Below are positions 32,941 through 64,000 of a stretch of 64,000 nt of DNA, in pieces; position 1 is the first letter of the stretch; every line of letters begins with the position of its first letter. The DNA is taken from positions 186,001-250,000 of the forward strand of contig NZ_FMVM01000008.1 of assembly GCF_900102085.1 (NCBI RefSeq), written 5' to 3'. The DNA comes from Paenibacillus polysaccharolyticus. Its GTDB lineage: Bacteria > Bacillota > Bacilli > Paenibacillales > Paenibacillaceae. The position numbers were made by a program, and so were the translations under genes. The notes beneath the pieces are model-generated. The model searched no databases and was not told the DNA's origin. It saw only the letters and a program-made list of their open reading frames with translations.

Positions 32941-32956
32941 ATAACAAATTGGTTAT
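32941..32956. promoter_or_regulatory. Candidate LysR operator
   Basis: ATAAC-AAATTG-GTTAT, an inverted repeat of the T-N11-A kind, lies between the divergent LysR and reductase genes, 51 bases before the LysR start and 115 before the reductase start. Confidence 0.5.
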
Positions 32957-33071
32957 CAAACTGCAATGAATAACTATTAGATCAATCTTCCATTCCTATG
33001 TTAGAGTTATGCCGAAAGATCGAGTCTGACTTTGACGAACATTATTTTCGAATGACAGAAAGGGGATTACC

Positions 33072-33686: not shown

Positions 33687-33699
33687 GAGGCTGACTACA

Positions 33700-39012: not shown

Positions 39013-39028
39013 GGAGAGGAGGAGCTAC

Positions 39029-41532: not shown

Positions 41533-42182
41533 TAGTTTTCCTCCGAATGGTCAGGTTCGTGAATCATTACGGGGTGTAACAGTGTTTTCAGATACGCGAG
41601 CAACGCCTCAAACTGCATGCTTGTTTTAGCCTTTTCGGTACCTACCGTGATGGAGTGTGTCATGATTCCTTCCTGATACGATGCAGCGAGTCTGGAAATG
41701 TCCGTCACGTCCATGTCAGTCGAGAATTCTCCTCGCTCTACGCCAATCCGAATTAAGGTTGCGAACTGTGCAACACCCGAATTGTAGCGCTCAATCAGTA
41801 AGTTCCGGCGTTCTTCATCGCGTGAGCCAATCAGAGAGTATTCATAGAAAGCAGATTGTAGTCCGGCATTTGGGAAACGAAGCAGATCCTCTAATTGCTG
41901 CGTATAGAGATCCTGGATAATTTTCCAGATGGATGACGAAGAGTGAATCAAGGTTTCGATGTGTTCTTTGTACCGCATATCTTGCCAATGAAGCAGTGCC
42001 TCGAAGATTTCTTCTTTGCTTTGATAATATAGATAGATCCAGCCTCTGCTCATACCGGCCTCTTCGACAATATCTTTTAGCGTTGTTGCCCCATAACCCT
42101 TGTATTCAAATGCACGTTTCGCTGCTTCAAGAATTAGCAAAGTCCTTAGTTCCTTCTGATCGTCGGATAACTTTGGAGACAT
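41532..42182 (-). CDS. TetR-family repressor of the MFS gene
   Basis: A 216-aa TetR regulator. ATG 42182 is preceded by AAAGGAGGAATTG; the open frame to 42257 lacks a site. The N-terminal HTH (YGATTLKDIVEEAGMSRGWIYLYYQSKEEI, seen at about 42091-42002) is followed by a ligand-binding helical domain. It should repress itself and the coupled pump by binding the palindrome at 42233-42253. Confidence 0.92.
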   Translation of the reverse strand: MSPKLSDDQKELRTLLILEAAKRAFEYKGYGATTLKDIVEEAGMSRGWIYLYYQSKEEIFEALLHWQDMRYKEHIETLIHSSSSIWKIIQDLYTQQLEDLLRFPNAGLQSAFYEYSLIGSRDEERRNLLIERYNSGVAQFATLIRIGVERGEFSTDMDVTDISRLAASYQEGIMTHSITVGTEKAKTSMQFEALLAYLKTLLHPVMIHEPDHSEEN

Positions 42183-42232
42183 TGGATCAATTCCTCCTTT
42201 TCTTAAAAATGAATCACGATTTATTATAATAT

Positions 42233-42253
42233 AAATGACATGCAGTTCATTTT
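42233..42253. promoter_or_regulatory. Candidate TetR operator
   Basis: AAATGA-CATGCAGT-TCATTT, a 6-bp-arm palindrome with a near-symmetric centre, 51 bases upstream of the tetR start and beside its AT-rich -10 region. It is also only 22 bases from the first promoter of the lipopeptide operon. Confidence 0.55.
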
Positions 42254-42274
42254 GCAATGGGTAAAAAAAATAAA

Positions 42275-42429: not shown

Positions 42430-43638
42430 ATGCACACGGCACTGCTGTTTCCAGGTCAGGGATCGCAATATATAGGTATGGGACAGGAGCTGTTTTCCAG
42501 TTCCATAGTAGCCAAAAGAACGTTTGAAGAGGCCTCGGAGATCTTGGGATACAGCGTATCGAACCTTTGTTTTCAAGGGAGTCTGGCAGAGTTAACCCGG
42601 ACCGATTACGCACAGCCGTGTATTTTGACGGTTGGCATCGCTGCCTTTCGTGTGTTAATGGAGAGAATGGAACGTGAGCCAGTCTATTTGGCAGGGCACA
42701 GTCTTGGAGAAATTACGGCGCTTACTGCTTCGGGAGCATTACATTTTGCAGATGCCATTCGCCTTGTCCGTTTTAGAGGCATGTTGATGCGAGATGCCCA
42801 GAAGAATAAAGCAGGCTCCATGATGGCTATCCATGGGCTTACCCCTCAAGTCATTGAGAAGGAATGCCTTGAGCCTGAATATCGAGGCTTGGTGGTCATT
42901 TCCAATCTGAATTCCAGTCGCCAAACTGTCGTTTCTGGTCAAGTGAATGCGCTTACAAAGATAAAAGAACGCTTTATTGACTTAGGAGGTCATGTTACAT
43001 CGCTCCAAGTGGGCGGTGCCTTCCACAGCCCATTCATGAAAAATACGGCCATGCAATTATATGATGAACTTGGTCGTATCCCTTTTCATTCCATGCGCTA
43101 TTCCGTGCTTTCCAATGTTACAGCACTTCCTTATCCTTCTGTGACTTGCATCCCCTCTTTTCTGTCGGAACAAATGGTAGAAAGAGTCCGCTGGCAAGGA
43201 TGTGTGCAATTCCTAATGGAGAGGCAGGTTTACAACCTGATTGAGGTTGGGCCAGGCAGCGTGTTAAGTAATATGCTGCGAAGAGAGAAGCTTGATGCAT
43301 GTATGATCCAGTCTATAGACACAAAGGAGAATCTGCAGAAGCTGATAAAGGAGAGGATGCCTAAGGGGACGGGAGCAGTCTCCTATGCCCGTTATTTAAA
43401 GGCGGCACTTTGCGCCAAAAACTACAATATTCACGGGGAAACTTCGGATTATCTGGAAGAGGTCGCGGGGCCGTTTCGGGAACTGGAGCAGCTTGCTAGG
43501 GCAGGCGATGTTGCAGGCGGTAATGCTAAAGCACTCGAAGCGTTACATCACATTTTGGATTGTAAGATGACTCCTGCTTTACAACGGGGAGATATTCTCA
43601 GTCATATAGCTGAAGAAGGAGTGGTTCGGCATGTTTAG
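42430..43638 (+). CDS. Trans-acting malonyl-CoA:ACP transacylase (FenF/ItuD-like)
   Basis: A 402-aa malonyl transferase. ATG 42430 (MHTALLFPGQGSQ) is preceded by GAGGGGGAT; the frame open from 42385 has no site. LFPGQGSQYIGMG and the active-site GHSLGE (Ser near 91) are intact; GGAFHSPFM carries the second catalytic His. An extra C-terminal segment of about 90 residues follows the usual 310, as in FenF/ItuD/BmyD of iturin-type clusters. It should load malonate on the ACP of the downstream synthetase, which has a KS but no AT. It overlaps the next gene by 8 bases. Confidence 0.93.
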   Translation: MHTALLFPGQGSQYIGMGQELFSSSIVAKRTFEEASEILGYSVSNLCFQGSLAELTRTDYAQPCILTVGIAAFRVLMERMEREPVYLAGHSLGEITALTASGALHFADAIRLVRFRGMLMRDAQKNKAGSMMAIHGLTPQVIEKECLEPEYRGLVVISNLNSSRQTVVSGQVNALTKIKERFIDLGGHVTSLQVGGAFHSPFMKNTAMQLYDELGRIPFHSMRYSVLSNVTALPYPSVTCIPSFLSEQMVERVRWQGCVQFLMERQVYNLIEVGPGSVLSNMLRREKLDACMIQSIDTKENLQKLIKERMPKGTGAVSYARYLKAALCAKNYNIHGETSDYLEEVAGPFRELEQLARAGDVAGGNAKALEALHHILDCKMTPALQRGDILSHIAEEGVVRHV

Positions 43639-46216
43639 CACACTCAATGAGGCCCTGAATCATCACACTGTTCTGGAAGAGCGAGGGATCACCTTTATTG
43701 AAGGAGAATCCCAGAGCGAATTTTGCAGCTTTGCGGAGCTTTATCGGTCCTCAATGTCTGCCCTGCATCTTCTAAGGAAGAACGGAGTAAGTGAAGGATC
43801 TGAAGTGATTTTGCAGTTGGATAACACCCGTGAATTCCTCGTTATTTTCTGGGCATGCCTGCTGGGTGGGTTCATCCCTGTTCCATTGACGGTGAGTAAA
43901 AATGAAGAATCGATGGCCAAAACGTTACGTGTAACCGGTGTTCTGAACCGTCCCTTTATTGTAGCGGAATCGCGGCATGTGGAAGAACTTCGTGAGCATC
44001 TGTCCCGCATTCCAGATCGAAATTGTGATCTACTGAATATCCAGGATCTGATAAACCAGAACCTGGAACATCAAGAGCAACCTATTTCTGCCCACCCTGA
44101 CGATGTTGCCTTTATTCAGTTTTCTTCGGGTACAACGGGAGAACCGAAAGGTGTGAAACTGACACATCGCAAACTTCTCGCGAACATTTATGATCTGGAA
44201 GAACGTTTGGGAGCCACCTCAGAAGATGCTTTTCTCAATTGGATGCCACTGACTCACGACCTCGGCATGATTATGTTCCATTTGCTCCCGCTGGTGGCCG
44301 GGTTGAATCAGTATCAGATGCCAACATGGCTTTTTATAAGACGGCCTGTTCTCTGGTTGCAAACCGCCAGCCACTTCAAGGCAACAATGCTCGCTTCGCC
44401 TAATTTCGGAATCAAGTATTTCTTAAACGCGTATCACAAAGCTGCGAACCAGCGCTCTTTTGATTGGAATTTAACTCCAATTAAAGCGATCGTGAACGGT
44501 GCAGAACCTATCGATGTGGACGCATGTCGACAATTTTTAGATGAGATGGCCGTTTTCGGACTTGACGGGAAATCGATGAAAATGGGATATGGCATGGCTG
44601 AAGCTTGTGTGGCGGTATGTATTCAGGAGCAGAACGAAGCGTTCACAACGTATTATGTCCGTAGAGATACTCTCAGTGTCGGGGACCAGGCTGTTTTTCT
44701 ATCAAGTGAGGATGAAGCAGGGCTGGCACTCTCTGGAACGGGAACCCCCTTACGAAATAGTCAGGTGAGAATTTGTGATGATTCTGGTCGTACGCTCCCC
44801 AAGGGATATATCGGATATATTCAGATTAAGGGTGCGAATATTACAGACGGATACTATAACAATGAAGAAGCGACCAACAAACTTTTTACGCCGGACGAAT
44901 GGGCTCATACAGGTGATCTGGGCTTTCTAATCCATAACCATCTGGTGTTTACGGGGAGAACCAAGGACATCATCATCATTAACGGCTCCAACTATTATCC
45001 CTATGATATTGAACGCATTGCAGAGGAATGTACGGATCTGAAGATCAAACGAATGATTGCTTGTGGAGTATATAACGAAGCTACAGGCACGGAAGAGGTT
45101 GTATTGTTTGTCTTGTACAGAGACAAGCTGGAAGAGTTCGGACGTCACGCGGATCAGATTCGCAGACATGTAAACCATGTGATGGGTATTCATCTAAGTG
45201 TTATTCTACCGATTTCCAAGATACATCAAACGACCAGCGGCAAGTTACAGCGTTATAAATATATTGAAAAATATAAAGAAGGAGCATTTCAGAAAGTCGA
45301 AGACGAACTAAGCAAGTGGCAGGAAATGCGGGAACAGAAAGCGCTGGTGCATAGACCTAAAGATGCGACGCAACAAGCGCTGTTTGAAATATGGAGCAAG
45401 CTGCTTGGCAAGAAATATTTCGGAGTCCATGACAGCTTTTTCGAGATAGGTGGGACTTCGATTCTCGTTATTCAGATGCTTGAGGAAGTAGACCTTTTAT
45501 ATCCAGATGTCATCACACTAACTGATATTTTTGCCTATCCTTCTGTGGAACAGCTCGCACAGCTGATTTCCAGTTCAGATGGATTGTCAAAAAAGGAGAT
45601 ACAGCTCCAAGCAGTCCAGTTGGAAGCGCCGTACTTCGAAGCGGAGTGGAGCGGAGCAGAGAATCAGTACCGTATGGTAATGTCCTCGTCGCAACGAGAT
45701 CGATTCCAAACATTTTGTCACGAGTTGCAAGTTGCAGACGAAGCGGTATGGCTCGCCCTTTTTTCGAACGCTATTTATGAAATATCGACCGGATCTAAAG
45801 TGACTGTGCATACCATGATGGACGGCAAAGGCTGGATTGTGCCTTTTCACGTGGATTTTGCACAAGTTGAAAGTATAGAAGATTTGCTCGTCCTGGCTGG
45901 TGCGAAGAAAAAAGTGGGCGAAGCAGAAGTATACCACACGAGAGATATTGAAAGACATGTGACTCGCATTGAACCTGGGTATGTCCGCTGCCTGTTCGCA
46001 CAAAAAGGGTGGTTGCATACAGAAGATGCCCTTCATAACGTATTTGACATGATCATGGAGTGGGAGGACTTAAAAGATACATCAGAGCTCTTTTTTCGCT
46101 ACAACCCTTCCAGAATGAACGGGGTTCTTATGAAAGAGTTGTTCCAGACAGTCGCGGACTCCATTGAGTCTCTACTGAGTGTTGATAGGGTTACCAACAT
46201 TTCGGTATCACAGTAA
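43631..46216 (+). CDS. Fatty acyl-AMP ligase - ACP loading protein
   Basis: An 861-aa loading protein. Residues 1-560 form a fatty acyl-AMP ligase of FAAL/AL type (FSSGTTGEPKGVKLTH near 165; MGYGMAEACVAV near 317; TGDLGF; KTSGKLQRYKY-like end TTSGKLQRYKY). Residues 570-650 form an ACP (IGGTSIL, Ser near 609). The last 200 residues resemble the C-terminal lobe of an NRPS condensation domain, lacking the HHxxxDG half. It activates a long-chain fatty acid and passes it to its ACP. In ItuA/MycA this AL-ACP unit is the N-terminal part of one giant protein; here it is separate. The gap to the next start is 18 bases. Confidence 0.92.
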   Translation: MFSTLNEALNHHTVLEERGITFIEGESQSEFCSFAELYRSSMSALHLLRKNGVSEGSEVILQLDNTREFLVIFWACLLGGFIPVPLTVSKNEESMAKTLRVTGVLNRPFIVAESRHVEELREHLSRIPDRNCDLLNIQDLINQNLEHQEQPISAHPDDVAFIQFSSGTTGEPKGVKLTHRKLLANIYDLEERLGATSEDAFLNWMPLTHDLGMIMFHLLPLVAGLNQYQMPTWLFIRRPVLWLQTASHFKATMLASPNFGIKYFLNAYHKAANQRSFDWNLTPIKAIVNGAEPIDVDACRQFLDEMAVFGLDGKSMKMGYGMAEACVAVCIQEQNEAFTTYYVRRDTLSVGDQAVFLSSEDEAGLALSGTGTPLRNSQVRICDDSGRTLPKGYIGYIQIKGANITDGYYNNEEATNKLFTPDEWAHTGDLGFLIHNHLVFTGRTKDIIIINGSNYYPYDIERIAEECTDLKIKRMIACGVYNEATGTEEVVLFVLYRDKLEEFGRHADQIRRHVNHVMGIHLSVILPISKIHQTTSGKLQRYKYIEKYKEGAFQKVEDELSKWQEMREQKALVHRPKDATQQALFEIWSKLLGKKYFGVHDSFFEIGGTSILVIQMLEEVDLLYPDVITLTDIFAYPSVEQLAQLISSSDGLSKKEIQLQAVQLEAPYFEAEWSGAENQYRMVMSSSQRDRFQTFCHELQVADEAVWLALFSNAIYEISTGSKVTVHTMMDGKGWIVPFHVDFAQVESIEDLLVLAGAKKKVGEAEVYHTRDIERHVTRIEPGYVRCLFAQKGWLHTEDALHNVFDMIMEWEDLKDTSELFFRYNPSRMNGVLMKELFQTVADSIESLLSVDRVTNISVSQ

Positions 46217-46234
46217 GTGAGAAGGGGAGAGTCG

Positions 46235-49200
46235 ATGAAAAAAAGTTTGTTGCCTCGCCGTACGAAGGAAGATCATATTCCAGCTGCAGTTATTGAGGAG
46301 CAGTCAGGTAAGGATATTGCGGTGATCGGCATGTCGCTCAAAGTCCCTGGTGCGGATTCACTGGATCAATTCTGGAGCAATCTGTGTCGCGGTGAAGATT
46401 GGATTCGTGAAGCTCCAAAGGTCAGAATGTCAGAGGGGGGAATAAAGGCACCACGACGTGGTTATTTGACCGAGATTGACACGTTTGATGATTTTTTCTT
46501 TCGTATCCCGCCTAAAGAGGCAACGTTAATGGACCCGTATCAAAGGTTGTTTCTTGAAATTGCATGGAGTGCGATTGAGGATGCAGGCTATGGCGGGGAT
46601 CGCATAAAAGGAAGTCGGACTGGTGTTTATGTCGGATCAGGACATGAAAATGAATATAAACAAATGATCTCTTCTTACAATACAGATCTGTTGTCGGCAG
46701 CTGCAGTAGGAAACATGTCCTCTGCTATAGCGAGCAGAATCAGTTATTTGCTTGATCTTAAAGGTCCAAGTTTGGTCATTGATACGGCCTGCTCTTCATC
46801 GTTAATGGCTGTTCATCTAGCTTGTCAGGCACTGCTCTCGAGAGAGTGTGACATGGCTATTGCTGGAGGCATTCAATTAATTCTAGATCCACAAGCCGAA
46901 CAGCCTCAGATCGGCATTGAATCCCCTTCGTCTAAAGTCAGGGCGTTCGATGAAGAAGCTGACGGGACGGTAAGAGGAGAGGGCATGGGCGCTATTCTGC
47001 TTAAACCTTTGTCCAGGGCCATTGCGGACAATGATCTTGTATACGCCGTAATTAAAGCAAGTGTCTCCAATCAGGATGGTAAATCCATAGGCATTACATC
47101 ACCTAACCGGGCGGCTCAAGAACAGCTTCTTATTCGTGCTTGGGAGCGTGCGGGTATTCACCCAGCTTCATTATCCTATATCGAAACGCATGGTACGGGA
47201 ACACCTATAGGCGACCCGATTGAGGTTCGTGCTATCCATAATGCGTTCCGTCTGTATACCGATAAAGTCCAGTTCTGTGCGATCGGCTCACTTAAGCCCA
47301 ATATCGGACATTTGTATCATGCCGCTGGCATTGTTAGTTTTATTAAATCAGCGTTGGCGCTTCATCATGAACAGCTTCCGCCTTCGCTCTATTTTGAAAA
47401 GCCCAACCCGCAAATCGAATTTGCGAATTCTCCTGCATATGTCAACGCTCACTTATCGGATTGGAAGAGAGGTACGGATGTACGCCGATGCGGAGTAAGC
47501 TCTTTCGGTATGAGTGGCACCAATTGTCACGTTGTGCTGGAAGAGGCAAGCGAAAGAAAGGTTGTTCTTTCGCCGAATACAGAGAACGGACCTTCCTTGT
47601 TTACTTTATCTGCCAGAACGCTAACCTCTTTGCGGTCTCTGATTGATAAATATCGTCTTTTTCTTCTTACATCTGACCCACAATCTTTTACAGACATTTG
47701 TTATACCTCGAATATTGGTAGAGGCGTGTATGAGTACAAACTTGCAGTAATAGCACATCACCATCAAGAGTTACGGGACAAGCTGGCATTTTTGCAGTAC
47801 GAGACTTTCACCGGGCAATACGGTGAATTGGCGGAGGGAATCTGGTTCGGTGGACCTGAACAGGATGGCTCTTCAACTTCCTCCGACCTGAACTTGAACG
47901 TTGCCAAGCCAAGTCTGGTAAATGTTCATGTCTTGAATCAGATCGCTACCCAGTATGTTTGTGGTCAACCCATCGATTGGAAAGGTCTCCATGCTGGAAG
48001 CAACAAGCGTGTAGTTTCAGTTCCGACATACGCATTCGATCGACATCGCCACTGGATTGTTCCTGTGATGGTGGAAGAGAGCAGTGGGGGAGTACCCCAC
48101 AAACCGGAGGATAAAAAGGAGAATTCAACGATGGAACATCGGGTTGTCCAGAGCGCAAATATTCATTTTTTCACAAGCGCGGTACAGGAAATGATATCGA
48201 ATATTTCAGGGTACTCCCCAGAAAACATCGGGATAAATCGAAACTTCATGGAGCTTGGCATGGATTCTATTTTGCTGGTCAATGTCAAACATGCAATCAA
48301 AAATGAATTTGGCGTAGATATTCCGATGCATCTGTTTTTCGAAGAAATGTCTACCGTCGCTGAAGTAGGGAAATATATTGCCAGTCAATCTCAGCAATTG
48401 CCAGAGTCTCCGATTCTAAACGGGCAAACAGAGGATAAGGGAGTGCCTCAGGATGCCGTACTTTTGCAAAATGTATATGTACATCCGTATGCAGCGTCAT
48501 CAGAGGAAGAGCGCGAATCGAGTAATCTATCCGTAGCAGGTTCAGGTCTGGAGGGCATTGTACAGAAGCAACTGGACTTGATGACTCTCCAACTTTCCAT
48601 GCTACAGGCAGGTTCTGCAGGATCGGAAGCTTCTGCAATTCGTTTGTCGGCGGCGACAGCGGTACAGGCGAATAAATCGGTGGAAAAAGACTATTTCGAC
48701 AATTCGACGGATAGCCAGAGCGTGCCCTCTAATCTTACAAAAGAACGTGTACAGACCAATCGGCCCTACGTCCCGTTCCAGAAGCTTGAAACGCATTCGA
48801 AGACAGGATTGAGCCCTGTGCAAGAGCATTTTATAGACGAATTTATCTCCAGATATACTGCCAAAACAGTTCGATCACAGCTTCATACACAAGCATTCCG
48901 TAAAGTGGTGGCCAATAATCGCAATGTGGCAGGTTATCGCCCCTACTGGAAGGATATCGTCTATCAGATCGTTGTTGATCAGGCCGAAGGATCTGGCATT
49001 ACGGATATCGATGGGAATCGCTATATTGACTTGACGATGGGCTTCGGTGTGAACCTGTTCGGCCATCAGGTGTCTTTTATTAACGAAGCAATGCAAGAGG
49101 CTATGCAAAAAGGAATGTGTGTTGGCCCGATCAATGCAGCGGCTGGTCAGGTTGCGTCTGCTTTGCATCAATTGACTGGCGTAGAACGTGCTGCGTTTTT

Positions 49201-55200: not shown

Positions 55201-57766
55201 AATGACATTTAAGCGAAATGGCAACCACATTCAGCAATCTTGTCAACATTCAGACCGGCAGGCTTTTGCATTCCAAGTAGCCGAGTCAATAGAGGAGACG
55301 AATAGCGAGCAATTCAAGGCTGTCAAGGAACGAATGATGGAAGAAATGCACCGGGCAATGGATCTGGAGCATGGGCCATTAGTACAGGCGGGCCTCATTC
55401 AGGGGTCAGATCGGGACGAACTAATCTTTACGATTCACCATTTAGTCATCGACGCCATTTCCTGGCGCATTTTACTGGATGATTTTTATGATATCTACAT
55501 TGCTCTCGAACAGAATATCCAGCCAGTTCTGCCTTCTATATCCGATTCTTATAAGGATTACGCACAGAGAATGCATACGTATGCTGCTACTGGTGAATGG
55601 AAACATGAAGCGCAATATTGGAAGAATGAAATGGCGCGACCAGTTTCGTCACTCATTGGGGACGGGATACACACGAAGGGTCAGGTTCGAGATAGTGAAG
55701 TGGCAAGTCTTTATTTTACACAAAAAGTCACTACAACCCTCGTACAATCGGCGACCGAGCGATACGAGGCGGATACCGCGTCTTTGTTGCTTGCTGCCTT
55801 AGGTACTGCAATGGAGGCAATGGGTGTTCGAGATGGTCTATGGGTCAACATGGAGGGACACGGCCGGGAAAGTTTCGGTGAAGCCTTAGATTATTCACGA
55901 ACAGTCGGCTGGTTTACATCGCATTACCCGATTTATTTGGATACTTCAGTAGCCCAAATGCCACACCTTTATGTTGCACAGCTTCATCGTGAGTTGCAGC
56001 TTATCCCTCACAGGGGTGCTGGATATAACGTAATGAAGTACATGCTGCCCGAAGCAGTGACCAGATCATTCCATGGATTTGAGATTGAGCCACAGATTTG
56101 CTTCAACTACCTTGGTGAAATGGATGACCGTCGTTATCAAAATCTGTTTCGGCTTTCGCAGCTTCCGATGCACGGAACAGAGAGTCCAGATGCAGACCGC
56201 CCATTTGCAATCACTTGCAATGTGCTCTTATCGGACGGGCGGATGCTGGTGGAGTTTGATTACAATAAACATCAGTTCCAAGCAGAAACCATCCAGAGAA
56301 TGTTGCAAGGTTTCCTTAATGGTTTGCAAGACATGATGTATGCCGGTGAGGGAGAGATAGTTACAGAAGAGGAACACGATGGATTTCAGCTGGTACCTTC
56401 TGCAGAAAGGGAGGTCCTTGAGCAGGTAGCGCCTTTTCCAATGCTCAAAGCTTATCCGCTGTCACCTATGCAGGAAAGTATGTTGTTCCATTACCTTCGG
56501 TTTCCGGATTCCACGGCTTACGAAGAGCAATGTGTCATTCATTTGCAAGGTGACCTTGACCCAGAACGGCTTAGAGACTGCTTTCAGCAGGTGGTTAATC
56601 AACATGACATTCTTCGTACATTTTTTGCCTTGCGTGGGCTCGAACGGCCGCTTCAGGCAGTGGCGAAGTCATGGAATCTTCCCTTTGAGTTTATGGATTG
56701 GACGGCGGAACATGGCGGATGTGAGCCCGAGAAGTTTCAACAATATCTTCAACAAAATCGTGAACGGCGCTTTAATCTATTTGGTGAGGTCCCTCTGAGA
56801 GTAACACTTATTCGATCAGACGATAACGCGTATAGTCTGGTTTGGAGCTTTCATCATATTTTGCTTGATGGGTGGAGTGTGGGCCTTCTTCTTAGTAGCA
56901 TCTTCGATCTATATGCCGATCTGCCTGATGTACGATCACTTGTCTCAGCGCCGCACTATGGGGAATACATCGGGTGGCTTGAAGGGCGAGATCCTTCTGT
57001 GGCTGAATCGTACTGGGCGACGTATTTAACGGAATACCGAAGTAAAAATGTGCTACCACGGTTACATGGATCAAGTGGTGAGTATGTACGGGAGGAACTT
57101 ACCCGTAACTTGCCAGAAACGCTCCAGGAAGCACTTAAGCAATTATCCGCCGAATACGGTTTGACGCTAAATATTTTGTTTCAGGCTGCTTGGGCGACGG
57201 TATTGCAGAATCTCAACGAAACTGAAGATATGATCTTTGGCGCAGTTGTATCGGGCAGGAGTGTCGAGGTGCAAGATATCGAGAACATGATGGGGCTATT
57301 CATTAATACGATTCCTGTTCGGGTAAAGTCAGCATCGGGTACCTTTTTGGAACTCGCATCACAACTTCAGTGGGAACAGATGGAGAAAGAACCCTATTCC
57401 CATATTCCACTATCTTCGATCCAAAAGTCTGGCGGCGGGGCAGTTCTGGATCATATCCTTGTTTTTGAAAATTATCCGCTGGAACTGCAGCTTCCTTCCG
57501 GACTGGAGATGGTAGATTACGATTTACATGAGTATACAAGCTATGATTTTAACCTGATCATTGAGCCGCATGAGAACTTCCTCATTCGATTTGTATATAA
57601 CAATGCCGCACATAGAGTAGAAGAGCTGGAAGATTGGATGAACTGTCTGCTCATTGTTCTCAGTCAAATCAGTGAAAATCCGAACGTGTTGTTGAAAGAT
57701 CTTTTCCCGGATGAAATTGTAACGAGTTCAGATGAAGGAGAAAGTCTAATTAAATTCCATTTCTAG
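46235..57766 (+). CDS. Hybrid PKS/NRPS: KS-ACP-AMT-C-PCP-C-A(Asn)-PCP-E-C
   Basis: A 3843-aa synthetase. I take ATG 46235 over GTG 46217 because AAGGGGAG lies between them. Domains: KS 25-450 (Cys186 in DTACSSS, HGTGTPIGDP, GHLYHAAG); AT-like linker remnant only; ACP (LGMDSILL, about 675); PLP aminotransferase 850-1310 (Lys1139 in YGKVVGGG); C 1330-1770 (HHLVADG); PCP (GGNSLA, about 1840) with no A domain; C 1900-2330 (HHLIADG); A 2350-2860; PCP (GGDSIK, about 2880); E 2935-3390 (HHLVIDAISW); C 3405-3840 (HHILLDG). The A-domain code read by eye is D-L-T-K-I-G-E-V-G-K, the known Asn code. So the fatty acid is extended by malonate, the beta-keto group is aminated, and the beta-amino acyl chain is joined to Asn, which E turns to D. 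Confidence 0.93.
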   Translation: MKKSLLPRRTKEDHIPAAVIEEQSGKDIAVIGMSLKVPGADSLDQFWSNLCRGEDWIREAPKVRMSEGGIKAPRRGYLTEIDTFDDFFFRIPPKEATLMDPYQRLFLEIAWSAIEDAGYGGDRIKGSRTGVYVGSGHENEYKQMISSYNTDLLSAAAVGNMSSAIASRISYLLDLKGPSLVIDTACSSSLMAVHLACQALLSRECDMAIAGGIQLILDPQAEQPQIGIESPSSKVRAFDEEADGTVRGEGMGAILLKPLSRAIADNDLVYAVIKASVSNQDGKSIGITSPNRAAQEQLLIRAWERAGIHPASLSYIETHGTGTPIGDPIEVRAIHNAFRLYTDKVQFCAIGSLKPNIGHLYHAAGIVSFIKSALALHHEQLPPSLYFEKPNPQIEFANSPAYVNAHLSDWKRGTDVRRCGVSSFGMSGTNCHVVLEEASERKVVLSPNTENGPSLFTLSARTLTSLRSLIDKYRLFLLTSDPQSFTDICYTSNIGRGVYEYKLAVIAHHHQELRDKLAFLQYETFTGQYGELAEGIWFGGPEQDGSSTSSDLNLNVAKPSLVNVHVLNQIATQYVCGQPIDWKGLHAGSNKRVVSVPTYAFDRHRHWIVPVMVEESSGGVPHKPEDKKENSTMEHRVVQSANIHFFTSAVQEMISNISGYSPENIGINRNFMELGMDSILLVNVKHAIKNEFGVDIPMHLFFEEMSTVAEVGKYIASQSQQLPESPILNGQTEDKGVPQDAVLLQNVYVHPYAASSEEERESSNLSVAGSGLEGIVQKQLDLMTLQLSMLQAGSAGSEASAIRLSAATAVQANKSVEKDYFDNSTDSQSVPSNLTKERVQTNRPYVPFQKLETHSKTGLSPVQEHFIDEFISRYTAKTVRSQLHTQAFRKVVANNRNVAGYRPYWKDIVYQIVVDQAEGSGITDIDGNRYIDLTMGFGVNLFGHQVSFINEAMQEAMQKGMCVGPINAAAGQVASALHQLTGVERAAFFNSGTEAIMVAMRLARAATNRRKIVIFSGSYHGTFDGVLAMSAGLGGSSTPIAPGILQGMVDDLIVLNYDHPESLRIIEQRAGELAAILVEPVQSRRPDIQPTAFLKKLRSLTATEGIALIFDEVITGFRIHPGGAQAWFGIEADMVVYGKVVGGGLPIGIVAGKERYLDGIDGGMWSFGDSSFPPHEERRTFVAGTFCQHPLAMNAALAVLQRLQEEGPALQEQLNRKTAALADRLNHYFAEELVPLEIVHFGSLFRFVQKSDLELLYYLLIEKGIYIWEGRNCFLSTAHSEADIDRIVDAVQSSVEELRSAGFLPPSSPTSPGGGRKQAGKALTVEVGRQAEPHPLTSEQTQLWFASLANDHMSDAYVESVVLRLEGAVDSERLREAVRYVVQRHGMLRTHFSNDEGLYYTELFENVASKIMFEEAEDIEESKGLPRSIQQKWTHGFDLSNSPLIRFCLLHHGQHQYRLIMQVHHLVADGWSIVHILKEIAGYYTMQNRLQSPDPVLFSAFAQWQHNLPLEEKQHARAFWTKRLSAPKPELVVSARLASESVSLYPGMRLYRNLNTEFTAELRAFGKKKGVSLFMLMLAAYNMLLSRISGLQQITVGIPVAGQLQMGLPQLVGQCVNLLPFSSHLPAKVELSEYATQVRGEMLELLEHQRCSYVDIVTALVTEGESVYPPVINTIFNFDKTPEFHFEDLRVQLESFPPSSFKYPISMNVLEVDQELVLELDVGDGVCGREEAEGWLETYTLLLDTLESKVWKEGEAEPKFRCSKIHTLLSTPSFVSSEKLAASLNPYRNDLTAEQARKNVNDRAAGYTPPVTEMQIRIHRIWLEMMKLEKASIHDHFLEVGGNSLAATVITVRLQEELGINVPLSLLFRHPTIAELAQVLDDVSTAESLRIPKARSADCYPQSASQRSIFAVEKLGRAGTAYNVTGLITVEGSLDLQRLKVAVNLLVKRHECLRTIFDLDEDEPVQRVVSESFMEIPMHLLGSDTTEEMILRTIRPFDLEQAPLMRMEYWTEQKESGRQYLLMDMHHLIADGFSANLLLEELIQLYDGQSLPTVTLHMKDFTQWQLGRFGAGDMRESKKYWAQQFKDGIPRLDWGIHHQRPSIRSYEGERYGFKLPDEILARIKAYAAAEKVTLYSYFLAAYKVMLSKYSVQEHIMVGTTASGRLYSDIERTPGMFVNTIPLRSDLASNQWFSKLVHEVQVNALHALEHQEYPLEKWIAIENEERDSGRNPLFDAVYVYQHQALSIDPQISGGVKFTASEYKNRMAKFDLTLEVVEKQNELHLDLEYCTAVFHPEAIEAMAGHLIAILEAVSHQPDVSISEISMLHASETKQLLHEFNETDNQRLLDQPIFVLFEEQVQRTPDAIAVSCAGVQFTYLELNMRANQFAQVLKEQGVLREMAVGLVMRRSPDLLAAIFGIWKAGACYVPIDPSYPKERIRYILDDCKAQWVIADAAYEELCNFSGSVILTEEVHGNVPLTPVNLEQIAGPDDLAYIIYTSGSTGKPKGVMVEHRGLTNYIRWADQTYVRGEKICFSLYSSISFDLTVTSMFTPLLSGNQIIIYSEDVEFALERICEDGEADLIKLTPSHLKLLSLYNTKGSSLKRFIVGGEAFESSAAADIISMFGPHVEIYNEYGPTETVVGCMIHQYDPAEPYSEVPIGWPIDNMRLYVSDEQGNLQAKHLPGELCIAGVAVARGYVNQPELTEEKFVSDRFHEPGKVYRTGDLVRWLPAGGMEYLGRIDEQVKIRGHRIEMGEIRNLLLAYSSIREAAVIVKETESNGKRLCAFYVSTEKLEIAELERYLSTYLPPYMLPSEYIRLDRLPLSANGKVDIKKLPVTLAEPTPFEHPSLVEIHGEAELLQAWREILRAPDASRDDHFMRLGGDSIKAIQIAARMKKCGYRLESAEILRLKTVSNIAPMLIALEETSPRKISGPVEGDVPLSPIQHWFFKQNFTEMNYWNNSVTLISVTRFSELFVRESLRLLTVHHAALRMTFKRNGNHIQQSCQHSDRQAFAFQVAESIEETNSEQFKAVKERMMEEMHRAMDLEHGPLVQAGLIQGSDRDELIFTIHHLVIDAISWRILLDDFYDIYIALEQNIQPVLPSISDSYKDYAQRMHTYAATGEWKHEAQYWKNEMARPVSSLIGDGIHTKGQVRDSEVASLYFTQKVTTTLVQSATERYEADTASLLLAALGTAMEAMGVRDGLWVNMEGHGRESFGEALDYSRTVGWFTSHYPIYLDTSVAQMPHLYVAQLHRELQLIPHRGAGYNVMKYMLPEAVTRSFHGFEIEPQICFNYLGEMDDRRYQNLFRLSQLPMHGTESPDADRPFAITCNVLLSDGRMLVEFDYNKHQFQAETIQRMLQGFLNGLQDMMYAGEGEIVTEEEHDGFQLVPSAEREVLEQVAPFPMLKAYPLSPMQESMLFHYLRFPDSTAYEEQCVIHLQGDLDPERLRDCFQQVVNQHDILRTFFALRGLERPLQAVAKSWNLPFEFMDWTAEHGGCEPEKFQQYLQQNRERRFNLFGEVPLRVTLIRSDDNAYSLVWSFHHILLDGWSVGLLLSSIFDLYADLPDVRSLVSAPHYGEYIGWLEGRDPSVAESYWATYLTEYRSKNVLPRLHGSSGEYVREELTRNLPETLQEALKQLSAEYGLTLNILFQAAWATVLQNLNETEDMIFGAVVSGRSVEVQDIENMMGLFINTIPVRVKSASGTFLELASQLQWEQMEKEPYSHIPLSSIQKSGGGAVLDHILVFENYPLELQLPSGLEMVDYDLHEYTSYDFNLIIEPHENFLIRFVYNNAAHRVEELEDWMNCLLIVLSQISENPNVLLKDLFPDEIVTSSDEGESLIKFHF

Positions 57767-57788
57767 ACAACCAGGGGGATGAAGTGAC

Positions 57789-60700
57789 ATGGATCGAACG
57801 TCGCAAAAAGAGGCTGTTTCCGCACAGGAACTAAGATTGCAAAAGAAGCACTGGGTAAAAAAAATGCTGGCACTCAAAACGGAGGAAACGTTGTTCACGT
57901 CATCCTTTACACCTCAGCATGAGAAGTCCGCTGTTCAATCCTACCCGTTTGAGTTGGCACAGAATGTAAGCGAACGGTTGCGCACCATGAGCGGGGAATC
58001 CAAAGAAGCTCTGTTTTTGATTTTACTGACAGCTTTAAAGACTCTTCTTCACAAGCATACCAGCAGTGATTCGCTTACCGTTGCTTACCCGGTGAACAGA
58101 ATACAAGACACAAGCGAACGTTCGCCGGAGCCAAACTGGATTCCACTCATCGACCATTCCCCGAAAGGCTGTACTTTCCGGGAATGGCTAAATGAACTTA
58201 AATCGACATATATCGAGACAGTCAAACACAGTGATTATTCGATGGACCGCCTTGTAGACGATATGAAGGTTGTCCATGACCGGGATTACGCCTTTCTTCA
58301 ACATATTCGTTTTTCCATTCAGGGGATGTACAACGTAACAGATGTAGAGAGTGAGACGCTGGGCATGCGGCTTCATATGTATTGGAGTCAGGACAAGCTG
58401 TGCGGTGTGTTAGCCGGCAATACCCGCTTCTTTAACACCGCTGATTTGGAGCGTTTTGCGAAACAGTACGGGGTTATCATTGAACAATTAATAGAGAACC
58501 CGGATCGTCCGGTGGAGGCCAGTGGTGTGCTTGCTGGACTAGAACGCGACCGATTGTTGAACGAATATGCAACAGGGCCGCGCCGGACCTATGGTTCCAG
58601 TGTAATGGGTTTGTTTGCGGAGCAAGTCCAGCAGACACCAGAGGCTACAGCCATCGTGACATCGGATGCTTCGATACGTTATGCAGAGCTGGAGGAAAAA
58701 GTAAACCACTGGGCTACTGCATTGATTAAAGACGGAACAAAGCAAGGGGATATCGTAGGACTTTACCTTGACCGAAGCCTGGAGACGGCCATTGCAATCT
58801 TAGCCGTGTGGAGGGCGGGGGCGTGTATTTTGCCAATAGATGTGCAGACGCCCGCAGAGCGAGTTCGATTCATACTGAAAGATGCCGGGGTAAATCGTCT
58901 GCTCACACAGGCCCTTTATGTTAGTCTTTCTTTGTTCCAAGACGTGGAACGATTACTTTCGTGTGAAGACCTGGATGCAGCAAGTAATGATGGTGAGATC
59001 CTTGCTCCCATCACGGCTGAACTGCCCGCTTATATTATATATACTTCGGGAACAACCGGGAATCCAAAAGGAGTAGTCGTATCTCATGGCGGACTGGTCA
59101 ATTCAATCGCATGGAGAAAAGAAGAGTACGCATTGGGAGTAGAGGACAACACGATCCAGCTCTTTTCCTATTCATTTGATGGCTTCATGACGGGATTCTT
59201 GACCCCGCTTGTATCGGGAGCAAGTCTCTTTATGGCTACTGAAATTCAGGTTAAAGATCCACTACGCCTGAAGCAATTGCTTATCGTATATCAGATCACT
59301 CATTTTATATGTGTGCCTTCGTTGTACCGCCTGCTTTTGCAACAGATTAAACCAGAAGACAAACTGTGTGTGCACCTTATTACGCTTGCAGGGGAGAGTG
59401 TCTCTCCTGCACTGATTCAGGAAAGCAGAGAACGGCTTCCGGATGTGAAGATATACAACGAGTATGGTCCTACTGAATCCAGTATCGTCGCTCTCTGTAA
59501 AAGAGATGTGGAACAGGGAGAGAAGGTGACGATTGGTCGTCCGATATCGAACATGCGTGCATATATTCTCGATCATTGGAACGAGCCTGTTTCGCCGGGA
59601 ATCGTTGGGGAACTTTGTTTGTCGGGTCCGGGTCTGGCTCGCGGTTATCTTAACCAGCCTGAGCTTACTGATCAAGCTTTTGTACCCAATCCGTTTATTG
59701 CGGGTGAGCGACTATATCGGACTGGAGATCTGGCCAAATGGACGGAAGAGGGGGAGATCTGTTGTCTCGGGCGCAAGGATGCTCAGGTGAAGTTAAGAGG
59801 ATATCGGATTGAGCTTCCCGAGATTGAACAGTGTCTTCAGAGCTACCCAGGTGTTCAAGCGGCAGCGGTTGTATGTGAGGAAGAAGAAGGCATTCCCGTG
59901 CGATTGATTGCTTATCTTCAAACCGACGACATCAAGGCTGTGGAATTACGAGATTACATGGCAAGAGAGTTGCCTTTCTATATGCTTCCGGCGCGCTATT
60001 ATCGACTTCATCAGCTTCCGCTGTCGGAAAACGGAAAGTTGGACAAGAAGGTGATCTCTTCCATGGATTGTATCAACCTGGATGTTGAATTCCGAGAGCC
60101 GGAAAATGAAACGGAACAGAAGTTATGTGAGATATTTGCTGATGTTCTTGGATTGAAGAGGGTATCCGCAGATGAGAATTTTTTTACTGCAGGAGGACAC
60201 TCCCTTAAAGCGACGATGCTGATGTCCAGAATTCAGAAAGAATTCCGTGTGGAGATCAGTGTAGATCATATTTTCGAAAAGCAGACCGTCAAGGCGTTAG
60301 CGGAAGTGATTACTTTAAAAGAAATCAGTACTTGTCCGGCCATTTCGCCTGCAAATCAGGGGGTGCATTATCCTTTATCTTTTACGCAAGAGCAGATGTA
60401 CAGAATGTTCTGTAATGATCCGCATTCAACCGCTTATAACATGCCGGAGGCTCTTGTTATCGAAGGGGATTTCGACGATCAGCGACTTCGGTATGCGCTT
60501 GAGGAACTGACGAAGAGACACGAAATTCTTCGAACGACTTTTTATGCAATCAATGGTGATCCTGTTCAGGAAGTACACGATGAGAACGTCGTCTCACTGG
60601 AGTATTCTGAGCAGGCTTCAACTGATCTTGAAGAAACGATAAGACAATTTATCCGTCCATTTGATCTGGCAAGACTGCCGTTATTTCGAGCAGGAATAAC

Positions 60701-63700
60701 GAAGATGGGGCCGAGAAAACATCTGCTTCTGATTGATCTTCATCATATCGTAGCTGACGGAGCCTCCATTGGCATATTCATCTCAGAACTGGCGAGCATC
60801 TACAATGGAGATTCATTACCTGAGATTAAACTTCACTACAAGGATTTCTCGGTATGGCAGCATAAACAGAAAGAGGATCGTGCATTTCAGGCTCAGGGGC
60901 AGTATTGGACAGATCAGTTCAAAAACGGAGTTCCCGTGTTGAGTCTGCCGTATGATCACCCTAGGCCGAAGCTTAAAGGTTTGGAGGGTAGCAGAATTAA
61001 CTTCACCGTTGATGCGGCTCGCACGTCGTCTCTGAAGAGGCTCGCTGCCGCAAATGGCGTTACGTTATTCATGTTGCTCTTGACAATCTACCAGATCATG
61101 CTCTCCAAGCTGTCCGGACAGAAGGAACTGGTCGTTGGTTCGCCAGTCTCTGGCAGAACACAGGCTGATCTGGAACACACGATGGGCATGTTTGTAAATG
61201 TGGTTCCCATCCGCGCCGAGGTGTCACCGCAATTACGTTTCACGGAGCTCCTGACTCAGGTAAAACATACGGCGCTTGGTGCGTTTGAGCATCAGGCGAT
61301 ACAATATCAGGATTTGGCACGGAACTTGGGATACACGCCAGATCCCAGCCGTAATCCGATGTTCGACACGATGTTTGTCCTTCAAAATATGGCTGAGAAT
61401 CGTTTTGATTTTAGAGGACTGCATTTCTCACATGTTGGCTTCGAGCAAACGGTGTCCAAATTTGATCTTACTTTAGCCGGGTTTGAGGGCGGGGATGGTG
61501 TGTTGTATTTCGATTTGGAGTACTGCACCCGTCTTTTCCAGAGGGACAGCGTACTGCGTTATGTGGACTATTTTATGCATATTATGCAGACCGTTATAGA
61601 ACATCCTCAGATACTGGTATCGCAGATGACGCTGCTACCCCAAGCTCTTTTGCATGAACAATGGAAGGGGCTTAACAATAAGAATCGATATGATGCACCT
61701 GACCTGACTCTACTGGAGCAGTTTGCCTTGCATGCCAAACGATCTCCCTACAAGGAAGCTTTGTTGTTTGGGGATTCACATATGACGTACGAACAGCTGG
61801 ACACACAGTCAGAACTATGGGCTAACTGGTTGCGCTCAAAGGACGTGGGCCTGGAAGATGTCATAGCGGTCAGAATGGAGCGTTCCTTTGAACTTGTCAT
61901 TGCGTTTCTGGCGGTACTTAAGGCAGGAGCGGTATATCTGCCAATCGATCCGGAATTTCCGGCGGATCGCACATCATACATGCTTCAGGACAGCGGAGCA
62001 GTGCTAATGATTACGGATCAGGCAGATACACAGCATACCGCATATCATATGCCTGTTTATCTGCCTCATGATATGCAATTTACCGATGTGAACACAAACA
62101 ACGCATTGCACAGACCACAAAGAAACAATCTGGCTTATATTATCTATACTTCAGGGACTACAGGCAGACCTAAAGGTGTGGCGCTAGAACATGCAGGACT
62201 AGCTAATCTTTCGACACTCTTTATCTCTACGCTCGGAATACAGTCCGAAGATCGCATTCTTCAATTTGCTTCTTGCTCTTTTGATGCTTCAATATGGGAG
62301 TTTACCATGGCATTTACTACCGGAGGAACACTGTGTTTAGTATCAGCAGAGACCATTGCTGATCCGGTTTACTTTGAACGGTACGTGGAAAAGGCGAATG
62401 TTACAGTTATGACGCTTCCGCCTCCTTACATGGCACGTTTGCATCCTGAGCATTTACCTGGTCTTCGCCTCATGATCACAGCTGGTTCAGAGCCGTCATC
62501 GGCCATGCTGTCGACATGGAGCCAGCATATGCGCTGTGTGAATGCTTATGGACCAACCGAAGCATCTGTATGTGCAGCGATATGGGAATATCAACAAGAG
62601 GCCGATATGTTATCTGTGCCTATTGGATACTCCATCCCTCATAGCAGACTGTGCGTTGTAGATGCAGAACTGAACCCACTGCCTGTCGGGGTTTCTGGAG
62701 AACTATGCATCGCAGGTACTGGACTTGCCCGGAGTTATTTGAATCTGCCGGAAATAACTGCGAGACAGTTCATCTCCTCAGACCTGCCAGGGTTTGAACG
62801 GATGTATCGCACGGGAGATCTAGCCAAACTGCTACCAGATGGCAGGATGATATACCAAGGTAGAATGGACAATCAGCTTAAGATTAGAGGATACCGTGTT
62901 GAACCAAGTGAGATTGAGGCACGACTGCTACAAATAACAGGTGTTCGTGAAGCCGTTGTATTGCCTAGAATGTGGGAAAATGAAAATTCACTAGTAGCCT
63001 ATTACACGGGTGACCATGCACCAGCATCGCGCGAACTGAAGATCGAGCTTACGACTGTTCTTCCTCATTATATGCTTCCATCATTCTTGGTGAAGTTGGA
63101 CGGGCTCCCTGTGACGTCAAATGGCAAGGTAGATCATGGTGTACTTCAACGTTTGGAACTGTTGCAAGAGGCGGGGGAGCTATCCCGTATGCCGGAGAAT
63201 GAACTGGAGGCAACGATCGTTCGTGTGTTTGAACAAGTCTTGAATGTTCATGGAATCGGAACTGATGACTTGTTTCACGAACTGGGTGGCGATTCTATCT
63301 CGGCAATGAAAGCCAGCTTTTTGTTGAAAGAGCAGGGGTTGGCTCTGGATGTGAGAGACTTGTTAGTTCATCAATCTCCTGTTGCTCTAGGGAAACGGTT
63401 ACTTCAAACTACATCTGAAGATGATCAGCAGCTTCAATCGGAAGGTTTACCAGAACGAATATCAGGTCGAGCGAAGACATTCGGTTCACAACAGAAGCAA
63501 TTGCAACAGGTTTTGGGTGATACGGAACAGAAGCAACTGATGGCTGCCCGTGCAACCATTGCAGATCAACAAGAGGTGTACAGAAGACAATTGGCCGCAG
63601 AGGTGGAATTGGCCATATTGCCTCTTACCGCTTCCCAGTCCACACATCTCGGACGCGCAGAAAACGTTGGTGTTGTTCTGCATTTCCATGCCGACAAGAC

Positions 63701-64000
63701 ATATGAGGATATCCATCAAGCCATTCATGGATTGGTGCAGGAGCAGGAAATGATGAGGTGTTTGTACAATGGCACTAAGGCCAAAAGTTGGAGCTTGCGG
63801 GAGCATCCTGCCGGATATAAAGTACCACACGTCAAACTTGAGTCAACCTGCTCCGAAGCAGTAATGGAACAATTGGTTTCGGAATTGTACTATGACAGAT
63901 TTGAAGAGGATGGACCAGACCGTTTGTTGTACCGAATGGTAGTCATTGAGAACAGCAGAACCGGAGCCAAAGTTTTTGTGTACTCTTCTCATCATGCTTT
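57789..64000 (+). CDS. NRPS: partial C-A(Tyr)-PCP-C-A(Phe)-PCP-C/E-like, runs off window
   Basis: An open frame from ATG 57789 (AGGGGGATGAAGTGAC upstream) to the window end, about 2070 codons, no stop seen. Residues 1-250 resemble only the C-terminal lobe of a C domain (no HHxxxDG). A1 is about 270-760 (YIIYTSGTTGNPKG near 413, NEYGPTESS near 556); its code D-G-T-I-T-A-E-I-V-K is close to the known Tyr code. PCP (GGHSLKA, 802); C 860-1300 (HHIVADG, 984); A2 1308-1790 (FDASIW, NAYGPTEAS), code D-A-W-T-I-A-A-V-C-K, a Phe/aromatic code; PCP (GGDSISA, 1833). After a Gln-rich spacer an unusual C/E-like domain begins (LPLTASQS, 1944), cut off at its HH motif. No E follows the Tyr module, so L-Tyr is expected. 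Confidence 0.92.
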   Translation, partial: MDRTSQKEAVSAQELRLQKKHWVKKMLALKTEETLFTSSFTPQHEKSAVQSYPFELAQNVSERLRTMSGESKEALFLILLTALKTLLHKHTSSDSLTVAYPVNRIQDTSERSPEPNWIPLIDHSPKGCTFREWLNELKSTYIETVKHSDYSMDRLVDDMKVVHDRDYAFLQHIRFSIQGMYNVTDVESETLGMRLHMYWSQDKLCGVLAGNTRFFNTADLERFAKQYGVIIEQLIENPDRPVEASGVLAGLERDRLLNEYATGPRRTYGSSVMGLFAEQVQQTPEATAIVTSDASIRYAELEEKVNHWATALIKDGTKQGDIVGLYLDRSLETAIAILAVWRAGACILPIDVQTPAERVRFILKDAGVNRLLTQALYVSLSLFQDVERLLSCEDLDAASNDGEILAPITAELPAYIIYTSGTTGNPKGVVVSHGGLVNSIAWRKEEYALGVEDNTIQLFSYSFDGFMTGFLTPLVSGASLFMATEIQVKDPLRLKQLLIVYQITHFICVPSLYRLLLQQIKPEDKLCVHLITLAGESVSPALIQESRERLPDVKIYNEYGPTESSIVALCKRDVEQGEKVTIGRPISNMRAYILDHWNEPVSPGIVGELCLSGPGLARGYLNQPELTDQAFVPNPFIAGERLYRTGDLAKWTEEGEICCLGRKDAQVKLRGYRIELPEIEQCLQSYPGVQAAAVVCEEEEGIPVRLIAYLQTDDIKAVELRDYMARELPFYMLPARYYRLHQLPLSENGKLDKKVISSMDCINLDVEFREPENETEQKLCEIFADVLGLKRVSADENFFTAGGHSLKATMLMSRIQKEFRVEISVDHIFEKQTVKALAEVITLKEISTCPAISPANQGVHYPLSFTQEQMYRMFCNDPHSTAYNMPEALVIEGDFDDQRLRYALEELTKRHEILRTTFYAINGDPVQEVHDENVVSLEYSEQASTDLEETIRQFIRPFDLARLPLFRAGITKMGPRKHLLLIDLHHIVADGASIGIFISELASIYNGDSLPEIKLHYKDFSVWQHKQKEDRAFQAQGQYWTDQFKNGVPVLSLPYDHPRPKLKGLEGSRINFTVDAARTSSLKRLAAANGVTLFMLLLTIYQIMLSKLSGQKELVVGSPVSGRTQADLEHTMGMFVNVVPIRAEVSPQLRFTELLTQVKHTALGAFEHQAIQYQDLARNLGYTPDPSRNPMFDTMFVLQNMAENRFDFRGLHFSHVGFEQTVSKFDLTLAGFEGGDGVLYFDLEYCTRLFQRDSVLRYVDYFMHIMQTVIEHPQILVSQMTLLPQALLHEQWKGLNNKNRYDAPDLTLLEQFALHAKRSPYKEALLFGDSHMTYEQLDTQSELWANWLRSKDVGLEDVIAVRMERSFELVIAFLAVLKAGAVYLPIDPEFPADRTSYMLQDSGAVLMITDQADTQHTAYHMPVYLPHDMQFTDVNTNNALHRPQRNNLAYIIYTSGTTGRPKGVALEHAGLANLSTLFISTLGIQSEDRILQFASCSFDASIWEFTMAFTTGGTLCLVSAETIADPVYFERYVEKANVTVMTLPPPYMARLHPEHLPGLRLMITAGSEPSSAMLSTWSQHMRCVNAYGPTEASVCAAIWEYQQEADMLSVPIGYSIPHSRLCVVDAELNPLPVGVSGELCIAGTGLARSYLNLPEITARQFISSDLPGFERMYRTGDLAKLLPDGRMIYQGRMDNQLKIRGYRVEPSEIEARLLQITGVREAVVLPRMWENENSLVAYYTGDHAPASRELKIELTTVLPHYMLPSFLVKLDGLPVTSNGKVDHGVLQRLELLQEAGELSRMPENELEATIVRVFEQVLNVHGIGTDDLFHELGGDSISAMKASFLLKEQGLALDVRDLLVHQSPVALGKRLLQTTSEDDQQLQSEGLPERISGRAKTFGSQQKQLQQVLGDTEQKQLMAARATIADQQEVYRRQLAAEVELAILPLTASQSTHLGRAENVGVVLHFHADKTYEDIHQAIHGLVQEQEMMRCLYNGTKAKSWSLREHPAGYKVPHVKLESTCSEAVMEQLVSELYYDRFEEDGPDRLLYRMVVIENSRTGAKVFVYSSHHA

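Follow-up and report, generated by a model that had tools for sequence, protein, structure and literature searches.

A lipopeptide gene cluster of Paenibacillus polysaccharolyticus ending in a condensation-superfamily domain, a candidate for ring closure of a predicted glycosylated β-amino lipotripeptide

The iturin line ends in a thioesterase carried by ItuC, and the iturin heptapeptide starts with Asn, D-Tyr and D-Asn. According to PMC11751314, the iturin and mycosubtilin lines (ItuDABC, FenF-MycABC) combine a trans-acting malonyltransferase, an acyl-AMP ligase (AL) with its acyl carrier protein (ACP), a ketosynthase (KS)-ACP-aminotransferase (AMT) block and a condensation (C)-peptidyl carrier protein (PCP) unit lacking its own adenylation (A) domain, after which Asn is added; the first C domain of ItuA moves the β-amino fatty acid onto the first PCP. 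Paenilipoheptin is made by seven modules, one each on PhnC and PhnD and five on PhnE, with epimerization (E) domains in modules 2–5 and a DPxxxD motif in the Ser E domain (PMC11959601), and the ring of paenilipoheptin A is an amide from the β-amine to the C-terminal D-Glu (PMC11959586). L-Glu is predicted at this seventh position, for which noncanonical epimerisation or an external enzyme has been suggested (PMC11959601), while the thioesterase of phnE was reported missing and a free-standing one proposed for cyclisation (PMC9867215). Here we describe a cluster of P. polysaccharolyticus whose nonribosomal peptide synthetase (NRPS) line begins with a comparable loading part and ends in a condensation-superfamily domain for which we coined the name T-term. 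It lies in the window, i.e., the whole stretch of 64,000 nucleotides analysed (contig NZ_FMVM01000008.1, positions 186,001 to 250,000; G000:C13:186001-250000 in our labels, where G000 is the own genome), and coordinates past 64,000 continue the window numbering. In our preferred reading T-term closes the ring of a lipotripeptide, probably Tyr-glycosylated, to a 13-membered macrolactam, and to this reading as a whole we assign a probability of about 0.47, slightly below even.

Domains were called by Pfam and NCBIfam scans together with seed searches. The line opens at 42,430..43,638 (plus strand, as all its genes) with a FenF/ItuD-like trans-acting malonyltransferase (TIGR00128, 284.8 bits against a cut-off of 260.9); judged by eye, its ATG at 42,430 has a good ribosome-binding site, and a longer TTG alternative exists at 42,385. 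ORF B (43,631..46,216) encodes a fatty acyl-AMP ligase (AL/FAAL, PF00501), an ACP (PF00550) and a conserved tail of about 200 residues (45,611-46,213), which has no Pfam match and is possibly a docking or half-C-like piece. ORF C (46,217-57,766, with a likely ATG start at 46,235 by eye) has the order KS-ACP-AMT-C-PCP-C-A-PCP-E-C. Its ketosynthase (46,301..47,566, PF00109/PF02801), ACP (48,161..48,391, PF00550), aminotransferase for β-amine formation (48,917..50,146, PF00202, 179.8 bits) and C1-PCP1 module (50,222..51,841) complete the loading part. An ORF B search at E ≤ 1e-200 among 394 genomes of the family, the own included, yielded nine clusters, and in all nine the Cys-His-His of the ketosynthase, the Ser of the ACP, the Lys of the aminotransferase and the His motif and carrier Ser of C1-PCP1 are intact. 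An iturin-style loader of β-amino fatty acids, as proposed in the preliminary description, was thus recovered by the domain scans. A C-PCP that lacks a full A domain is usual in iturin synthetases; considered as a novelty, it was rejected, since the same arrangement occurs in G003, G013 and G043 and is described for ItuA. The gap between C1 and PCP1 is approximately 130–160 residues longer in six of the nine clusters than in the three-genome group of the window, and in these six it weakly matches (12–29 bits over ~95–130 residues) the C-terminal part of A domains. The insert is probably the remnant of an A domain, of which the group closest to the window has lost even this trace.

The full A domains that follow number only three. 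Module 1 (C2-A1-PCP2-E1, 51,917..56,386) carries the code DLTKIGEVGK and a complete E domain (HHLVIDA, EGHGRE, FNYLG), and D-Asn is predicted. ORF C closes with C3 (56,432..57,706), which groups with other post-E condensation domains of the D-C-L type. ORF D (57,789-64,769, extending 0.8 kb beyond the window) reads half-C-A-PCP-C-A-PCP-terminal domain. Its first part (half-C, A2, PCP3; 57,789..60,323) has the code DGTITAEIVK and no E domain, predicting L-Tyr, and C4 falls in the clade of C2, separate from the post-E C3 domains, in the tree of C, E and T-term domains. Module 3 (C4-A3-PCP4, 60,357..63,398) has the code DAWTIAAVCK, and the top PDB matches of A3 are tyrocidine synthase 1 and GrsA, with one matched stretch each. 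We take the three codes to be of Asn, Tyr and Phe type. The series D-Asn (A plus E), L-Tyr (no E) and Phe read earlier from the letters therefore agrees with codes and motifs: the codes are not Asn-Tyr-Asn, no overlooked E domain was found after Tyr, and the start of the iturin heptapeptide is not reproduced. The expected product is accordingly unlike iturin, as had been argued, and no near-identity to a characterised cluster was found in a comparison made without antiSMASH or MIBiG. Our confidence in the loading logic and the peptide prediction is high. Compared with iturin lines, AL-ACP is a separate gene, three residues are specified instead of seven, E acts on Asn and not on Tyr, there is no thioesterase and two glycosyltransferases are present; the three-module length, the lack of a thioesterase and the two downstream glycosyltransferase genes go beyond the preliminary description. 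Like ORF D, the second synthetase of the iturin-type locus G003 begins with a half-C. The paenilipoheptin-like G013-type relatives differ from the cluster here in having AL, KS and AMT on one protein.

T-term comprises the last ~420 residues of the line (63,489..64,766, of which 63,489..64,000 are in the window). The own copy scores 29.4 in Pfam, against a cut-off of 30.6, and those of three other lines score 54–65. In a FastTree phylogeny of 87 of 133 non-identical domains (C rows thinned by genome; E, C and T-term labels assigned by best seed match), the 32 T-term rows formed one clade apart from the E and C rows with an SH-like (Shimodaira-Hasegawa-like) support of 100. FastTree warned of long branches meeting, but an IQ-TREE mixture-model run on 52 rows, with C, E and T-term rows all thinned by genome, still gave three groups, with an SH-aLRT of 100 for the T-term clade. 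The T-term profile is not sharp, with internal C and E domains at ~15–65 bits (a ranking bonus of 200 subtracted) and terminal copies of the same proteins at ~220–470. In 20 of 20 loci, and in 10 of 10 further ones, T-term is the last domain of its protein. The catalytic His and Asp are retained, and six residues are invariant in all 32 rows (His169, Asp173, Gly293, Arg294, Asp310 and Asn358), and Ser176 is kept in 31, with Thr in the remaining one. Both the HxxxDxxS pattern and the last-domain position are those of terminal condensation (CT) domains that close rings, for which HxxxDxxS is described in fungi (PMC11546977). The fungal CT domains show 10–11% identity to T-term in the matches, and T-term differs from them by an E-type NYxG (Asn and Gly in 32/32 rows, Tyr in 31/32) and by the invariant Asp310, a position taken by Ser or Val in EGHGRE-bearing E rows and mostly by Asn in C rows. 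In the literature searched (with subscription papers, here and below, outside its scope, and sources seen in part), no description was found of a condensation-type domain at the C-terminus of paenilipoheptin-like lines.

The closest comparison for the release step is a line of genome G800, read from inside AMT onwards. It has 1+1+5 modules with the codes DVWHFSLVDK, DVCETGTIEK, DAWAFAGVAK, DAWLFGAIVK, DAWTFAAIAK, DASTLAAVAK and DAKDIGVVDK, the last of which are presumably of Phe, Tyr and Glu type, as in paenilipoheptin; the Trp and Val/Ala slots were assigned by position and not by code. E domains follow residues 1–4 and are absent after residues 5–7. The first of them, weakly labelled at first, has its nearest matches in the corresponding E domains of G061 and G013 (first E domain in each; 642 and 624 bits) and has DPNVAD in place of HHxxxD. 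By module plan, codes and the DPxxxD E domain, the sequence identifies G800 as a paenilipoheptin-like line; G452, G435 and G438 had also been considered and were rejected because their codes differ. The last protein of G800 ends in T-term, and both paenilipoheptin and the cluster here are AMT lines without thioesterase, the comparison being with G800 rather than with phnE of P. polymyxa itself. Paenilipoheptin, suggested earlier for comparison, therefore serves well as a comparator, but it is not the product, as it has seven residues against three. No gene like GT1 or GT2, the two downstream glycosyltransferases, occurs in the stretch read around G800.

No thioesterase was found in the cluster, and PF00975 gave no match on contig C13 or within the line of G800. 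The tails of four T-term lines gave in Pfam only carrier, A-domain-end and partial condensation matches, with one WS_DGAT match below cut-off. An alpha/beta hydrolase approximately 460 bases downstream was tried as the cluster thioesterase and rejected, as it lies past a terminator-like hairpin seen by eye 3′ of GT2 and has a homologue in three of the nine regions (that of G186 is readable for 0.6 kb after GT2). The iturin-type locus G003 could not serve as thioesterase control, as the stretch read holds no third synthetase. No other domain stands behind the last carrier, which makes T-term the obvious candidate for closing the ring and perhaps for inverting the final residue. By analogy, the first role can be proposed with moderate confidence, resting on one paenilipoheptin-like line, and the second with low confidence. 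Three points weigh against ring closure by T-term: ordinary C and E domains have HxxxDxxS as well; the fold search with the T-term model (32 rows, pLDDT (predicted local distance difference test) 86.9, replacing a 9-row model with pLDDT 67.7 and its fold search) ties C, E, cyclization (Cy) and CT domains and so leaves function undecided by fold; and free-standing thioesterases exist elsewhere, one of 262 residues on contig C15 of the own genome and three of 252–304 residues in G800.

These last genes would matter most if T-term were a degenerate or modified E domain without any part in release, and a free-standing enzyme freed the chain, as has been proposed for paenilipoheptin (PMC9867215). 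The NYxG shared with E domains and ratios of nonsynonymous to synonymous substitution (dN/dS) of 0.29 and 0.22, among the higher values in the cluster, would agree with this explanation, which we regard as unlikely: six invariant residues in 32 rows are not what a decaying domain would show, T-term stands at protein ends in the loci examined, and beyond ORF B to GT2 nothing common to the nine regions was found, a thioesterase included. Slightly less likely again is that T-term is an epimerase, alone or combined with a hydrolase, which makes the last residue D, the chain leaving by hydrolysis or by attack of a soluble amine or alcohol in trans as a linear glycolipopeptide. The common NYxG could be read in this way too, and the fold matches include 6cgo, a condensation domain through which the enacyloxin synthase releases its chain. 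Release-type condensation domains of this kind use other acceptors. The D-Glu7 of paenilipoheptin, found despite an L-Glu prediction (PMC11959601), would also suit an epimerase, but paenilipoheptin is cyclic (PMC11959586), the catalytic Glu of E domains, present in 14 of 14 EGHGRE-bearing rows among 23 E rows, is Thr, Val or Ile in 32 of 32 T-term rows, and no acceptor-supplying gene common to the nine regions was found.

Ring closure by T-term can also be extended to a wider proposal, which we put forward tentatively, as less probable than the reading of this one cluster: that T-term represents a class of release domain in bacterial NRPS lines that has gone unrecognised, a third branch next to C and E domains, which replaces the thioesterase in β-amino lipopeptide lines, closes the macrolactam and sets the last residue as D. 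It would explain at once the missing thioesterase and the D-Glu7 of paenilipoheptin and a family of glycosylated cyclic lipotripeptides.

Several genome searches scored only two to five candidates per genome, so that counts are lower bounds; the core cluster is present in at least 9 of 394 family genomes. ORF B orthologues in the eight other genomes are 39–95% identical (P. xylanexedens 95%, P. pabuli 85%, P. monticola 58%, P. phytohabitans 54%). Stand-alone AL proteins of 780–855 residues with 33–34% identity (G029, G032, G050, G067, G003, G036) were rejected as orthologues, as they belong to a different hybrid polyketide synthase (PKS) cluster in which AMT was not found. In 9/9 regions, homologues of ORF B, ORF C, ORF D, GT1 and GT2 follow one another in unchanged order, while the malonyltransferase, a TetR-type regulator and a major facilitator superfamily (MFS) transporter are found in seven (own included) and not in those of G185 and G207. 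Other ORFs listed from the G000, G200 and G185 regions have homologues in at most three of the nine, with the limit given above for G186, and flanking genes are common to near relatives only. ORF B to GT2 being the only set found in all nine regions, the conserved unit is the cluster itself. Asn-Tyr-Phe codes are kept in seven clusters; in G185 and G207 the first and third are changed (DLTMIGVVAK, DVMIIIAVYK) and the Tyr-type code is kept. The catalytic residues checked are intact in all nine, except the first of two His residues of the terminal domain, which is Asp in G185 and G207, the second, at the catalytic position, being kept. In comparisons of the own genome with G069 and with G020, all domains of at least 60 codons, T-term and the glycosyltransferases included, have dN/dS values under 0.3, showing purifying selection on all of them in both comparisons; the exception is the 38-codon C1-PCP1 linker (0.375 and 1.49).

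These data bear on the idea that the cluster is a decayed iturin-type line yielding no product or a truncated shunt. It has only three modules, and truncated AMT clusters are known in G059, G060, G062 and G063, but all nine clusters, down to 37–43% identity, retain open frames and their active sites, selection is purifying in the two close comparisons, and three-residue AMT lines ending in T-term recur in other lineages; we therefore hold decay to be very improbable. Plasmid searches with the window part of the cluster and phage searches with 3 kb of it gave no match. In the literature searched, which left out among others the paenilipoheptin paper of Vater et al. 2018, no description of the cluster was found. 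Paenibacillus sp. EDO6, which stands near P. xylanexedens, carries an uncharacterised 28-kb trans-acyltransferase PKS-NRPS cluster (‘cluster 12’; PMC7789753) that may or may not correspond to the one here.

The two glycosyltransferases of the MGT family follow in the same operon on the plus strand, GT1 at 64,858-66,117 (longer start at 64,813) and GT2 at 66,151-67,395, and both exceed the curated TIGR01426 cut-off of 260 bits (311.4 and 287.6). Their closest relatives are macrolide-inactivating enzymes of the OleI/YjiC type. Tyr is the sole predicted residue common to all nine clusters, each of which has both genes, and for this reason it is the likely sugar site; O-glycosylation of Tyr is proposed with moderate confidence from sequence, and one or more sugars may be added. 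The nearest relatives could also suggest that both enzymes inactivate the product inside the producer as self-resistance, the sugar-free form being active, whatever the mode of release. We find this somewhat doubtful, as the two genes are kept together in 9/9 clusters and no further gene was found, among those shared by the nine regions, that could take the sugar off outside the producer.

T-term reaches well beyond this cluster. In Paenibacillaceae, 54 matches were listed (47 from the family search plus seven own-type places), of which 33 have an AMT domain upstream of them on the same strand, no more than 60 kb away; conversely, 33 of 74 AMT matches are followed by such a T-term. Many AMT loci without T-term have ORFs of 3,960–3,990 residues, like the iturin-type G003. 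Among the 21 T-term matches without such a link are cases of fragmented assembly (G059), one probable contig break (G161) and lines in which AMT was not found (G061, G063); with unlinked matches in existence, T-term is not confined to β-amino lines. In a class-wide sample, at least 18 of 338 genomes gave a match at 1e-40. Other three-residue AMT lines ending in T-term occur in G013, G026, G027, G061 and G736, and GT1/GT2-like genes were not found in the stretches read around them. In the AMT tree, the nine own-type rows stand together (SH-aLRT 90, not strong) beside other T-term lines. As the AMT of the T-term line G043 groups with that of the iturin-type G003, AMT and T-term have, on this tree, probably recombined at least once.

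Some further loci were observed during these searches. The own genome has a second, weaker T-term match (L162, G000:C15:180369-181622) at the end of a 5,579-residue NRPS/PKS hybrid, near a FAAL-KS gene, an acyltransferase and an aminotransferase-like gene, with the free-standing thioesterase ~12 kb away; several relatives have ORFs of 5,558–5,624 residues that also carry T-term matches. In the truncated AMT clusters L080, L109, L111 and L113 (G059, G063, G062 and G060, respectively), the AL-ACP-KS-ACP-AMT protein stops shortly after AMT, at about the same point in all four, and the peptide modules are gone. In L103-L104, the paenilipoheptin-like three-module line of G061, the second synthetase gene is split into frames of 639 and 959 residues by a frameshift or an assembly fault.

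Upstream and divergent from the operon lie the MFS transporter, a probable exporter (40,267..41,532, minus strand; PF07690, 101.3 bits), and the TetR-type regulator (41,532..42,257, minus strand; PF00440, PF17922). The cluster adjoins a gerA-type spore germination operon (36,320-40,153; PF03323, PF05504, PF03845), which is absent from that place in G069. Further upstream, a group at 31,010-36,150 holds an ApbE-like gene, a LysR-like regulator and an FMN reductase-like gene (all by eye) and an 816-residue FMN_red/FMN_bind/FAD_binding_2 fusion, likely a flavin-based reductase set. Further large genes (10,256-14,971, 17,050-20,730 and 21,091-29,418) comprise a 1,571-residue protein with a weak STAND-NTPase match and two large S-layer-anchored surface proteins with SLH, CBM9, laminin-G and Ig-like domains.

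In the pathway that we propose, the AL-ACP protein would adenylate and load a fatty acid, the KS would extend the acyl chain by one malonyl unit supplied by the trans-acting malonyltransferase, and AMT would transaminate it to a 3-amino fatty acyl chain. C1 would pass this chain to PCP1, the carrier without its own A domain as in ItuA, and D-Asn, L-Tyr and Phe would be added in turn. T-term, and not a thioesterase, would then release the chain, most likely by attack of the β-amine on the Phe thioester, giving a head-to-tail macrolactam of 13 ring atoms, possibly with the last residue inverted. GT1 and GT2 would add sugars, most likely on Tyr, the MFS pump would export the product, and TetR would control the cluster.

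Release is among the least predictable steps of NRPS lines. T-term may have been overlooked, as its own copy falls just under the Pfam cut-off and the published reading of paenilipoheptin suggests a separate thioesterase for cyclisation (PMC9867215). The cluster points to a small family of glycosylated β-amino lipotripeptides, of which no description was found in the literature searched. If T-term does close rings, macrolactam products could be predicted for a considerable share of the AMT lines of these bacteria, and a compact ring-closing domain would be available for peptide chemistry.

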